Shown here: positions 13,717-24,478 of the stretch, in pieces
Numbering within the stretch: the first letter of the stretch is position 1
How the letters are laid out: every line of letters begins with the position of its first letter
Source: Bacillota bacterium
Lineage (GTDB): Bacteria > Bacillota > Limnochordia > Darwinibacteriales > DTU012
Assembly (NCBI GenBank): GCA_012521185.1
Contig: JAAYMV010000073.1
Coordinates: forward strand, 1-32,816
DNA length: 32,816 nt
Reading direction: 5' to 3'
Made by a program: the position numbers and the translations under genes
Notes under the pieces: generated by a model
Databases searched by the model: none
What the model saw: the letters and a program-made list of their open reading frames with translations, nothing else
Told to the model about the DNA's origin: nothing

Positions 13717-15003
13717 TTAACCAAGAATTGTCTTAATATCTTCCTCAACAGTTGTCGTGAGACGTAAATCAAAGTTTTCTTGGAGATATTCAAATACTTT
13801 TGGTGTAATCCAAGCTGGAGCGGATGGACCGATGTAAATACCTTTCAAACCGATAGAAAATAAACTCATTAAAATAGCAATAGCTTTCTGCTCCATCCAA
13901 GATAGTACTAAAGTTAATGGTAAATCATTTAGATCACATTCAAAGGCTTCAGCTAAAGCCGCAGCAATTTGAATACCAACAATCGCATCATTACATTGAC
14001 CTAAGTCTAGCAAACGAGGAATACCATCGATATCACCAAGGTCTAAATCATTAAATCTAAATTTACCACAAGCTAAGGTTAAAACAACTGTATCTTTTGG
14101 TAAGCTAGCCACAAAGTCACGATAATAATTACGGTGTTTACCTGGAGCATCACAGCCGCCTATTAAGAAGAAATGACGAATCTTACCTTCTTTCACTGCT
14201 TGAACGATTTTATCAGCCATTGGCAAAATATTAGTATCAGCAAAACCTGTTGTTAAATACTTGCCTTCAGGCTCACCTTCCATTTTTGGCAATGATAAAG
14301 CTTTTTCAATTAATGGTGTAAAATCATAGCCTTCGATTTGTTCCACACCTGGTACCCCGTCTACACCAATGGTAAACATTCTGTCTCTATAAGATTCATC
14401 TGGTAACATGACACAGTTAGATGTAACTAAAATTGCCCCTTGGAAATCTCTGAATAAAGATTTTTGATCAAACCATGCCCCACCTAGATTTCCTTTTAAA
14501 TGAGGGAATTTTTTTAGTTCTGGGTAACCATGAGCAGGTAACATTTCAGAATGAGTATAAATATTAATGCCTTTTCCTTCTGTTTGTTTCAGCAACTCAT
14601 ATAGAGCTTTCATACTGTGTCCAGTAACTACAATACCATGACCTTCAAATATATTAGTAGGGACCTTTACAGGTACCATTTCCCCAAAGTTCTTCACATG
14701 GGCTTCTTTTAACATTTTCATGGCTTCAAGGGTCATTTGACCAGCCTTTAAGTTAAAGCCAATGGTTTGTTCTAAGTCAAAATTCACGTTTGTTAGGGTG
14801 CTATAAAGACCCTCAGCAAAGAAAGCATTAATCTTTGGATTCTCTACACCAAGTTCACGTGCGTGATAAGCATAAGCTGCAATACCTTTCATGGCATAAA
14901 TCAAGTTATCTTGTAAACTTTGAATGTTTTCGTCTTTACCGCACACTCCAACCTTGGTGCATGCAACACCACCAACAGTCATTTCACATTGGTTACAAAA
15001 CAT
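13717..15003 (-). CDS. hcp: Hybrid cluster protein, short class III form (hydroxylamine/NO reductase)
   Basis: A 428-residue hybrid cluster protein. Hcp enzymes reduce nitric oxide or hydroxylamine and take part in nitrosative stress defence in anaerobes. The N-terminal cubane cysteines are C3, C6, C15 and C21. The hybrid cluster ligands are all visible: H129, E153 (HSEMLPAHGYP), C197 (SNCVM), C284 (GGCDAPGKHR), C312 (LACGKF), C337 (GQCNDA), E371 and K373 (SWMEQKA). The protein lacks about 115 residues of the helical domain found in the longer class I and II forms, which fits class III. It is monocistronic between a terminator and a promoter with a consensus FNR-type site. The start follows AAGGGGAG. 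No hcr reductase gene is adjacent. Confidence 0.95.
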   Translation of the reverse strand: MFCNQCEMTVGGVACTKVGVCGKDENIQSLQDNLIYAMKGIAAYAYHARELGVENPKINAFFAEGLYSTLTNVNFDLEQTIGFNLKAGQMTLEAMKMLKEAHVKNFGEMVPVKVPTNIFEGHGIVVTGHSMKALYELLKQTEGKGINIYTHSEMLPAHGYPELKKFPHLKGNLGGAWFDQKSLFRDFQGAILVTSNCVMLPDESYRDRMFTIGVDGVPGVEQIEGYDFTPLIEKALSLPKMEGEPEGKYLTTGFADTNILPMADKIVQAVKEGKIRHFFLIGGCDAPGKHRNYYRDFVASLPKDTVVLTLACGKFRFNDLDLGDIDGIPRLLDLGQCNDAIVGIQIAAALAEAFECDLNDLPLTLVLSWMEQKAIAILMSLFSIGLKGIYIGPSAPAWITPKVFEYLQENFDLRLTTTVEEDIKTILG

Positions 15004-15092: not shown

Positions 15093-15134
15093 AGTATAGC
15101 ATAGGGAGATCTACAAAAAATTGATATAGATCAA
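15093..15134 (-). promoter_or_regulatory. FNR/Crp-type activator site and -10 element of hcp
   Basis: A perfect FNR-type palindrome TTGAT-CTAT-ATCAA occupies 15134-15121 on the minus strand. A -10 hexamer TATACT lies at 15098-15093, and nothing resembles a -35 (ATTTTT at that place). The site is centred 41.5 bases upstream of the predicted start near 15086, the textbook position for a class II activator. The regulator gene is not in the window. Confidence 0.8.
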
Positions 15135-21788: not shown

Positions 21789-22982
21789 TTACAATTTACT
21801 AACAAACTCTTTTCCGTAAGCGATACAAGCAGCAACCGCTTCGGCATCAGGTTGCCATAAAGCTCTAATACCTTCATCAACGACTTCAAAACCTGCATCC
21901 TTCAGCTCTTGAGTTATTAACTTAACTGCTTCTCCACTCCAGCCATAACTACCAAAAGCAGCAGCTTTCTTGTTTTTAAACTTCATACCTTTTACCATTT
22001 CCATCATGCTACCCATACTACTTAAATAACGGTTGTTAACAGTAGATGAACCAAATAAAACAGCTTTAGATTTGAAAATTTCCGTAATCGTATTATTTTT
22101 ATCATCTTTTCCTATATTCGATAATTTAACAATCAATTCTGGATCAGCTTGTCTAATTCCATCAGCAATGGCTTCTGCCATCTGTTTAGTACCTTCCCAC
22201 ATGGAATCATAAACAATGGTGATTTGGTTTTCCTGATAATTATCGGCCCATTTCAAATATTGCTCAATAATTTGCGTTGGATTCTCCCGCCAAATCACAC
22301 CATGGCTTGTACAAATTAAATCTACAGGTAAATTTAAAGCTAATACTTCATCAATTTTCTTCTTTACTAAAGCACTAAATGGCGTCAATATATTGGCATA
22401 GTACTTAATCGCCTCAGCAAACAATTCACATTGATCCACTAAATCGTTATACAGTGCCTCAGTAGCATAATGTTGGCCGAAAGCGTCATTACTAAATAGG
22501 ATATTTTCACCGGTCATATAAGTAAACATGGAGTCAGGCCAGTGCAACATAGGAGCTTCAACAAAGACTAACTTACTTTCGCCTAAATCTAGTGTATCAC
22601 CAGTTTTTACAGGAACGAAATTCCAATCTTGATGGTAATGTCCTTTCAAAGATTTAACACCATTATTAGTACAATAAATTGGGGTATCTGGAATTTCTCG
22701 CATCAATTCTGGCAGCGCACCACTATGATCCACTTCCCCATGATTTATGATAATATAATCAATTTCTTGTAAATCGATTTCTTCTTTCAATTTTTTCACA
22801 AATTCCTTATCGAATGGTAACCAAACTGTATCGATCAGCGCTACTTTTTCATCACGGATTAAGTAAGAGTTGTATGTTGAACCTCGATGCGTCGATAGTT
22901 CTTCCCCATGAAAGGATTTTAATTCCCAGTCCACTTTACCGACCCAAGTTACCTTATCAGTGATCTTTTTACTCCAATTCAT
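21789..22982 (-). CDS. fprA: Flavodiiron protein (A-type flavoprotein, O2/NO reductase)
   Basis: A 397-residue cytoplasmic flavodiiron protein that reduces oxygen to water or nitric oxide to nitrous oxide. The N-terminal metallo-beta-lactamase-like domain has the full diiron ligand set: H81-x-E83-x-D85-H86 (NHGEVDHSG), H147, D166 (SNDAFGQH) and H227 (TSHGVIWR). The C-terminal flavodoxin domain starts near residue 254 (ITIVYDSMWEGTKQMAEAI) and binds FMN. No rubredoxin domain is fused. The start MNWSKKIT at 22982 follows GAGGGGG. The longer frame to 23018 has no such site. The promoter carries an FNR-type site spaced as in front of hcp. Confidence 0.95.
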   Translation of the reverse strand: MNWSKKITDKVTWVGKVDWELKSFHGEELSTHRGSTYNSYLIRDEKVALIDTVWLPFDKEFVKKLKEEIDLQEIDYIIINHGEVDHSGALPELMREIPDTPIYCTNNGVKSLKGHYHQDWNFVPVKTGDTLDLGESKLVFVEAPMLHWPDSMFTYMTGENILFSNDAFGQHYATEALYNDLVDQCELFAEAIKYYANILTPFSALVKKKIDEVLALNLPVDLICTSHGVIWRENPTQIIEQYLKWADNYQENQITIVYDSMWEGTKQMAEAIADGIRQADPELIVKLSNIGKDDKNNTITEIFKSKAVLFGSSTVNNRYLSSMGSMMEMVKGMKFKNKKAAAFGSYGWSGEAVKLITQELKDAGFEVVDEGIRALWQPDAEAVAACIAYGKEFVSKL

Positions 22983-23013: not shown

Positions 23014-23056
23014 AGCATACCGTAAATGAGAATTCGTAAACTATGATTTAGATCAA
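23014..23056 (-). promoter_or_regulatory. FNR/Crp-type activator site and -10 element of fprA
   Basis: TTGAT-CTAA-ATCAT (23056-23043) matches the FNR consensus at nine of ten positions. A -10-like TATGCT lies at 23019-23014 with 23 bases between, against 22 in the hcp promoter. The site is thus centred about 42 bases before the predicted start. Confidence 0.7.
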
Positions 23057-23091
23057 ATTTTCTTATTTATCTCAGATTTTACTGGTAAAAA

Positions 23092-23217
23092 TTGGTTAAT
23101 CAAAACGGTTATCATTATTATAGCATGAAACCTAGTTATTTACTACCGACAATTTTCAGTCTGCTTGACAGCAGGAGCTCTAGGGATTAATCTAGTATTA
23201 AACCTGTAAAAGGAGGG
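23092..23217 (+). promoter_or_regulatory. Possible promoter and structured leader of the metal exporter gene
   Basis: TTGGTT (23092), an 18-base spacer and TATTAT (23116-23121) could be the promoter. The leader of about 90 bases has possible stems, CCTAG with CTAGG enclosing CTGC-TTGACA-GCAG, before AGGAGGG (23211-23217). I could not match it to the manganese (yybP-ykoY) or NiCo riboswitch cores, so a regulatory RNA is only a possibility. Confidence 0.3.
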
Positions 23218-23224
23218 AATGCAA

Positions 23225-24478
23225 GTGTTTAACGAAATTTTAGATTTAGTAATTGTTAGTGCAGAAAACGCTTTTATTCAAGTTACCGTTTTTGTTGGGG
23301 CTGTACTTCTGTTTTTTGGCTATATTGATTATTTGCTTGCTGGCAAACTAATCAAGAAAATTGAAGCAGCTAAAAAATGGCAGCCAATCATTGGTGCTTT
23401 CCTCGGTATTACTCCCGGCTGCGGCGGTGCAATCTTTGTGATGCCCCTGTTTCATAGAGGGACTGTAACGTTCGGCACAATCACAGCTACCTTAGTAGCA
23501 ACCATGGGTGATGCGGCATTCGTATTACTATCAACAAAGCCCGTAGATTTTGCCATAGTTACTGCTTTATCATTTATCATAGCTATTATTACTGGATATA
23601 TAATCGATTATTTCCAAATTGGAGCAGGTTTACTCGAAGATTACCATGCTCGGCAACAAAAAAAAGAAGAACGTCGAATGGCTCATCATCAACAGGACCA
23701 TTCTCATTTACGTCAAGAAGCTGCTGTAGCTGATGAAAGCATTATTCACTTAGGTCACCAAGAGGGAGATGAAATCGACCTAATTCTTCACCATGAAATT
23801 AAAGGTCACCAACCTACTCATGGTTTAGGTTATAAATTAACTCACCAAGGATTCGGCGTTTATTGGGTAGTGTTAGGAATTGGTTTAATCCTTGGTATTT
23901 TAGATTTATTCCAAATAGATTTAGATAGCTTCTTATTCCCTAATTTTGCTACAATTGTGGGAGTAAGTGGTACAGTCTTATCGATTATCATGATGATTGC
24001 TAGCAAAAAGTTCATTCAAGATGATACTCACGAAGAAGCTGAATTAAAACTGCATAATATAAAAGAAACTATTGTTCATAATGCGCAGGAAACAGCCTTT
24101 GTCGCAACATGGGTGTTCTTCGCTTATTTAGCTTATGAGTTATTTGTTCTAGCCTTAGGTTCTGGCAATTATCTAGCTGGTGAAATGACCATGACAGCTT
24201 TTTTGACCCAGACTGGTTTTGCTGCTGTAATTATTGGAACCCTAATCGGGATGATTCCTGGTTGCGGGCCACAAATTATCTTTGTCAGTCTATATATTCG
24301 TGGCTTAGTTCCATTTTCAGCTTTACTAGCTAATACTATCTCCCAAGATGGGGATGCTTTATTCCCGCTAATTGCTATTGATAAAAAAGCCTCTGTCTGG
24401 GTTACAATCATCAATACCATTGTGGCCTTTATAGTAGGAATAATTAGCTACTGGCTGCAGTTTTCTGTTTTTGGCTAA
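23225..24478 (+). CDS. Putative 10-TM heavy-metal/manganese exporter with His-rich loop
   Basis: A 417-residue membrane protein of the putative 10-TM heavy-metal exporter group (PF11449-like). Two repeats each carry a glycine-cysteine motif: GITPGCGGAIFVMP near residue 64 and GMIPGCGPQIIFVS near residue 345. Between them lies a soluble, histidine-rich loop (about 140-205, including HHQQDHSHLRQ and HHEIKGHQPTHG) that probably binds metal. About ten hydrophobic segments are visible. The GTG at 23225 is preferred because AGGAGGG is eight bases upstream. The ATG at 23219 almost touches that site. It is divergent from fprA, and transport of manganese, arsenic or another metal is not settled by sequence. 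Confidence 0.85.
   Translation: MFNEILDLVIVSAENAFIQVTVFVGAVLLFFGYIDYLLAGKLIKKIEAAKKWQPIIGAFLGITPGCGGAIFVMPLFHRGTVTFGTITATLVATMGDAAFVLLSTKPVDFAIVTALSFIIAIITGYIIDYFQIGAGLLEDYHARQQKKEERRMAHHQQDHSHLRQEAAVADESIIHLGHQEGDEIDLILHHEIKGHQPTHGLGYKLTHQGFGVYWVVLGIGLILGILDLFQIDLDSFLFPNFATIVGVSGTVLSIIMMIASKKFIQDDTHEEAELKLHNIKETIVHNAQETAFVATWVFFAYLAYELFVLALGSGNYLAGEMTMTAFLTQTGFAAVIIGTLIGMIPGCGPQIIFVSLYIRGLVPFSALLANTISQDGDALFPLIAIDKKASVWVTIINTIVAFIVGIISYWLQFSVFG

Follow-up and report, generated by a model that had tools for sequence, protein, structure and literature searches.

FNR boxes and the regulation of Hcp and flavodiiron proteins are already known. Activators such as FNR and CRP that bind class II promoters near -41.5 contact RNA polymerase and replace a poor -35 element, and classical FNR is active without O2. 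At class II promoters of Escherichia coli FNR the site is TTGATNNNNATCAA at -41.5, and the promoters described here are alike in both site consensus and spacing. NO defence in strict anaerobes has so far been assigned largely to HcpR. HcpR1 and HcpR2 are Crp/Fnr-family activators of hcp in anaerobes, HcpR2 recognizing the motif GTAACnnnnGTTAC, while DNR of Pseudomonas uses the FNR-box TTGATnnnnATCAA before NO-metabolism genes and has denitrification genes as targets; according to the same source, both HcpR and DNR lack the FNR cysteines (PMC1274295). The HcpR regulons described in the parts of that paper devoted to them do not count fprA among their targets. The gene ric, which belongs to the RIC/YtfE/ScdA group, is a nitrosative-stress repair gene, and the sections of PMC9268430 on its control name NsrR, DnrD, NorR, SrrAB and other regulators, with direct FNR control not reported there. 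Searches of the open-access literature turned up no account of a cysteine-bearing FNR that controls hcp, fprA and an operon of a ric-like gene and a P1B ATPase in Bacillota.

The window analyzed in this study, a stretch of 32,816 nucleotides, belongs to a Bacillota genome (G000; 2.11 Mb, 126 contigs, 98% complete) and carries both hcp and fprA (Table 1). The preliminary description had named the two genes hcp and fprA, the latter a flavodiiron gene, and these identities were upheld by NCBIfam models for a hybrid cluster protein and a flavodiiron protein, which scored above the cut-off for both. The fprA protein contains an ODP beta-lactamase domain and a flavodoxin domain, and no rubredoxin domain was found in a domain profile search of its 397 residues; its gene begins at 22982 with an ATG, which is accompanied by the Shine-Dalgarno-like run GAGGGG. 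The hcp gene starts with ATG at 15003, and its product carries the Prismane domain. The nine-of-ten FNR-type site described earlier at fprA, with 23 bases to its -10 element against 22 at hcp, agrees with the sequence in both position and letters. At both genes the site ends 22-23 bases before the -10 element, as in class II FNR-dependent promoters, and the -35 is weak as judged by eye. Taken from sequence, both are probably activator sites of class II promoters that serve a single regulator of the FNR family, most likely the FNR-like protein encoded on contig C92.

Table 1. Positions of the genes and promoter elements discussed (positions refer to the window unless a contig is given).
Feature	Position	Strand	Remarks
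FNR-type site of fprA, TTGATCTAAATCAT	23043..23056	-	9/10 consensus positions
-10 element of fprA, TATGCT	23014..23019	-	23 bases after site, class II spacing
fprA, flavodiiron protein, 397 aa	21789..22982	-	NF008887 flavorubredoxin, 722 bits vs cut-off 635
FNR-type site of hcp, TTGATCTATATCAA	15121..15134	-	10/10 consensus positions
-10 element of hcp, TATACT	15093..15098	-	22 bases after site
hcp, hybrid cluster protein, short form, 428 aa	13717..15003	-	TIGR01703, 630 bits vs cut-off 361
ArsP_2-type putative exporter, divergent neighbour of fprA	23219..24478	+	PF11449, 311 bits
C92 FNR-like protein, 233 aa	G000 contig C92, 4120-4818	-	Crp/Fnr
PflA-Crp/Fnr fusion, 500 aa	G000:C65:3511-5013 (L253)		pyruvate formate-lyase activase TIGR02493 over cut-off

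The divergent ArsP_2-type gene shows no FNR-type promoter of its own, and a 73.5% identical counterpart adjoins fprA in genome G001. A GATAACC/GGTTA-like element in the intergenic region between the two genes (23083-23219) is also kept in G001, whose fprA has no FNR site.

The consensus by itself is common in this genome. The window contains 11 places that match with one mismatch or none, where shuffles lead one to expect 3.1, and the whole genome has 372 such places in 2.11 Mb. Exact matches number 23, and 21 of them lie inside open reading frames, which were picked as long frames by a simple greedy rule and not by a gene caller. A control with the reversed pattern (5 versus 23 matches) is misleading, because that pattern contains stop codons. 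As exact matches are mostly inside open reading frames and one-mismatch matches are common, a nine-of-ten match alone means little, and the bare consensus was rejected as evidence. The view put forward earlier, under which equally good sites should not occur inside genes at a similar frequency, is therefore contradicted for the bare motif. The two exact matches outside open reading frames are the hcp site and a perfect TTGATAGGAATCAA (G000:C97:33293-33306, L189) upstream of an open reading frame that we take, from our own reading of its sequence, to be SpoVAC-like; the latter is absent from the matches to site plus spacing and is likely due to chance.

The combination of site, spacing and -10 element is informative. 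TGATNNNNATCA followed at the right distance by a -10-like TANNNT was matched 22 times in the whole genome, 20 times inside open reading frames, and the remaining two places are hcp and fprA. With the looser TTGAN6TCA and a gap of 21-23 to the -10 element, 47 of 51 matches were inside open reading frames. Two of the remaining four again belong to hcp and fprA; the third precedes an operon of contig C120, and the fourth precedes rplU (gene named by eye) and resembles an ordinary promoter. Because the patterns were drawn from hcp and fprA, the return of these two genes is no test, and the C120 operon is a new prediction; this operon and the other genomes provide the only independent tests. From about two unexplained intergenic matches and an estimated ~1400 promoters, we infer that the chance of a fitting operon appearing is of the order of 0.001. 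Site plus -10 spacing, together with an architecture conserved in other genomes, is well beyond chance.

The site of the C120 operon, TTGACCTTGATCAA, is followed by 22 bases and then by TATGAT. The first gene of the operon encodes a 97-aa protein that matches the RIC iron-sulphur repair family with a value below the family cut-off (TIGR03652, E 7.5e-15). It is related to full-length RIC proteins of distant clostridia whose genes adjoin fprA and the gene of a cysteine-bearing FNR. The operon also encodes a heavy-metal P1B ATPase (TIGR01525, over cut-off), which has related ATPases next to FNR genes in genomes of the same class, and a heavy-metal-associated (HMA) domain protein. As judged from the promoter sequences, a regulon of at least three units in G000, namely hcp, fprA and the C120 operon of ric-like, P1B ATPase and HMA genes, is supported. 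The motif had been expected to lead to further members of the regulon, and the genome-wide search for site plus spacing did return this third fitting operon.

The comparison set consisted of 60 genomes, G000 and 59 relatives, none of which is of the same genus. The C120 ATPase has a match at E <= 1e-130 in 43 of them, and 27 orthologous ATPase loci were collected from the relatives (L316-L342). In 25 of these the sequence extends 150 bases or more upstream of the operon. Each of these 25 promoters possesses the site, and it lies 22 or 23 bases before TANNNT in 24; in the shuffle control, a site with this spacing was present in a mean of 0.025 loci, with a maximum of 1. The four genomes of the same family that carry the ATPase operon (G004, G006, G007 and G008) are all among the loci with the site. 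In addition, the ATPase paralogues that adjoin FNR genes have the site at the 22/23 spacing in 8/8 genomes with a promoter, the ninth locus (L314) being incomplete there. The consensus of the ATPase-operon sites in relatives is TTGAYCTAGATCAW, and the spacer CTA found at hcp (CTAT) and fprA (CTAA) is part of this motif. A matrix was built from 29 sites of the ATPase operons of other genomes, with none from hcp, fprA or G000 itself. When it was run over 327,981 overlapping bases, a part of G000 enriched for site-like places since most stretches were chosen for bearing one, hcp (22.0), C120 (20.0) and fprA (19.0) ranked first to third, and the next distinct place (17.8) was inside an open reading frame. 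The proposal of one regulator for hcp and fprA is supported both by this relatives-only matrix and by the genome-wide searches for site plus spacing.

A Pfam search of G000 revealed exactly two Crp/Fnr proteins over the cut-off, the C92 protein and a fusion of PflA with a Crp/Fnr protein. The C92 protein shows the Crp/Fnr fold (PF13545, HTH_Crp_2, 74 bits; PF00027, cNMP-binding-like, 81 bits; both over cut-off) and carries cysteines C9, C11, C16 and C114. The last of these aligns with C122, the central cysteine of FNR in E. coli. The three N-terminal cysteines, the central one and a recognition helix, PETVSR, that fits ExxSR are shared with E. coli FNR, and the cysteines set the C92 protein apart from HcpR and DNR. 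Its CxCx4C cysteine spacing is unlike that of E. coli FNR. The NCBIfam Fnr model NF008365 gave 51.2 bits, below its cut-off of 228, and the protein is therefore called FNR-like and is not filed as an E. coli-type FNR.

The other protein, the PflA-Crp fusion, has the helix RETITR and is encoded directly downstream of a 759-aa pflB-like gene. Class II sites of the form GTGAY..RTCAC were found at 5/5 pflB promoters of genomes with the fusion, that of G000 included, 22 bases before the -10 element (spacing by eye), so that by sequence the activase of the fusion may switch on its own operon. No description of such a fusion was found in the open-access literature searched. Residue 180 in the helix of Crp/Fnr proteins was reported to be tied to the third base of the site, R going with G and other residues, for example Ser or Pro, with T (PMC1274295). 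This rule fits G000, where P180 goes with TTGA and R180 with GTGA: the hcp, fprA and C120 sites carry TTGA and the pflB sites GTGA. By this rule the fusion goes with GTGA and the C92 protein with TTGA, and hcp and fprA were assigned to the C92 protein for this reason. The contrast at helix position 180, P/Q/S/I versus R, thereby separates two Crp/Fnr circuits in one genome.

The alternative that the fusion, and not the C92 protein, binds the hcp, fprA and ATPase sites nevertheless deserves attention, since G004 and G008, both of which keep the ATPase site, yielded no Crp/Fnr protein other than the fusion, and since in G023, G024, G029, G030 and G034 its coordinates place it a few kb or less from the ATPase operon. 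What speaks against the C92 protein is that no FNR-type match at E <= 1e-10 was obtained for five of the genomes that have the ATPase site (G004, G008, G010, G017 and G035). Against the fusion, GTGA is what the residue-180 rule predicts for RETITR and what stands, at the same 22-base spacing, before the fusion's own operon, and at that position the hcp, fprA and ATPase sites of G000 carry T or A and in no case G; we consider this alternative unlikely. Across the 59 relatives, FNR (E <= 1e-24) and the ATPase (1e-130) co-occur (37, 5, 3 and 14 genomes, p 4e-7, a value without correction for relatedness). No FNR-type site was seen upstream of the fnr gene.

As side observations on the fusion, in-frame PflA-Crp fusions of 499-506 aa (L253, L255-L260) have a pflB-like gene adjoining in 7/7 genomes, the neighbouring open reading frame running off the stretch in L255 and L257, and in 19/60 genomes the Crp match lies within an open frame 501-577 aa long.

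Conservation at fprA and hcp themselves is a different matter. Apart from G000, the 60 genomes contain 29 fprA loci, none of which has a fitting site, and 24 hcp loci, which lack the hcp site save for a weak match in L127 without a fitting -10 element. G001, the closest genome by fprA (81%), keeps the fprA-arsP2 neighbourhood and has no site at fprA, no hcp and no FNR-type match. The sites had been expected to persist in close relatives, an expectation that these 29 and 24 loci contradict. This absence does not sink the single regulator, because motif and spacing are conserved at the ATPase operon of close relatives and, in distant clostridia, at fprA and ric.

The distant set comprised 80 named fprA loci (L014-L093). 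The pattern [GT]TGAT....ATCA[ACT], which was composed after the sites of fprA loci had been inspected, occurs within 300 bases upstream in 17/80 and exactly 22 bases before TANNNT in 14/80, these loci being those of Anaerocolumna, Herbinix and allied genomes. Shuffles gave means of 0.3 for the site and 0 for site plus spacing, and in gene DNA the counts were 0/80 for the first 300 bases and 1/80 for the later gene body. On their opposite strand these upstream regions also match the site, which is nearly palindromic, in 12/80 loci, with the 22-base spacing in only 1. Further, smaller peaks appear in the gap histogram of the 80 loci, those at 11 (8) and 24 (6) being the largest; they are read as due to additional TA...T words of these AT-rich promoters. 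Six distant loci carry a cysteine-bearing FNR-type gene, with the helix RETVSR, directly downstream of fprA, and the fprA site is present in 6/6. For the neighbouring ric of distant clostridia, a separate site at the 22-base distance is present in 8/10 promoters examined. An adjacent RETxSR regulator is weakly associated with the fprA site over the 80 loci (6/12 versus 11/68, p 0.016), and in several of them the site beside the regulator serves ric.

These data also bear on the reading that the fprA match is a chance one and the hcp site alone is functional. Such a reading draws on the 372 places with at most one mismatch and on the missing conservation of the fprA site in close relatives. It is made quite improbable by the fprA spacer CTAA, which is of the regulon type (beside CTAG and CTAT), by the third rank of fprA with a matrix built without its site, by the occurrence of the 23-base spacing at ATPase promoters of relatives as well, and by the same architecture at fprA of distant clostridia.

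In distant clostridia, the hcp loci (L219-L233, L236, L244) show an HcpR2-type GTAACNNNNGTTAC in 6/17, and judging from these sequences hcp and fprA appear to belong to two circuits there and to one in G000. A haem-type HcpR, NsrR or another NO regulator governing both genes, with the FNR sites secondary, is very improbable for G000: hcp is run by such regulators elsewhere (described, for the systems treated there, in PMC1274295 and PMC12915319), as the HcpR2-type sites at these 6/17 loci also suggest, but the two Crp/Fnr proteins of G000 are not HcpR-like, one having the FNR cysteines and the other being the PflA fusion, no HcpR-type regulator without FNR cysteines was found among them, and the G000 hcp promoter has TTGATCTATATCAA where an GTAACnnnnGTTAC (HcpR2) or TTGACnnnnGTCAA (HcpR1) site was looked for. 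Several of the other distant hcp loci have, by eye, a GTAGC/GCTAC palindrome, often before a TATAAT-like -10 element.

Under the preferred explanation, that of one regulator, a dimer of the C92 protein would bind the 14-bp palindrome TTGAYCTARATCAW at the hcp, fprA and C120 promoters; 22 or 23 bases separate the end of this palindrome from the -10 element, and its centre would be near -41.5. The bound protein would contact RNA polymerase and help it at promoters without a good -35, and hence presumably acts as an activator. The C92 protein is predicted to hold an iron-sulphur cluster that would make it sensitive to O2 and NO, so that it could read O2, NO or damage to the cluster. A response of the regulon to NO and O2 is suggested by the functions of its genes. 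The wiring we prefer is anaerobic pre-arming, in which the cluster-bearing form would turn on the defence genes in anoxia and traces of NO or O2 would meet ready enzymes; as classical FNR is active without O2, the NO/O2 reductases would stay ready in anoxia. The opposite sign, activation by the damaged cluster, is possible as well.

Unlike that of E. coli FNR, the proposed regulon is small, consists of NO/O2 defence and metal genes and belongs to anaerobic Bacillota, and it would tie the NO/O2 reductases to a metal pump and to the repair of iron-sulphur clusters. We tentatively suggest, as a possibility, that across this Bacillota group an FNR-like iron-sulphur protein runs a response to cluster damage, with a core of ric and a CPG-type P1B ATPase with an HMA carrier that would clear metal from broken clusters, to which hcp and fprA may have been added in G000 by gain of sites, hcp being without HcpR there. 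The motif TTGAYCTARATCAW followed by 22/23 bases and a -10 element is tight enough for finding further targets.

Finally, the usual membrane metal motif of P1B ATPases is CPC. In a scan of the ATPases of the FNR circuit at 11 loci (including L310:358-2211, L039, L150-L152, L157, L164, L167, L172 and L175), L025 gave no CPG match and the other ten carry CPG as their membrane metal motif.
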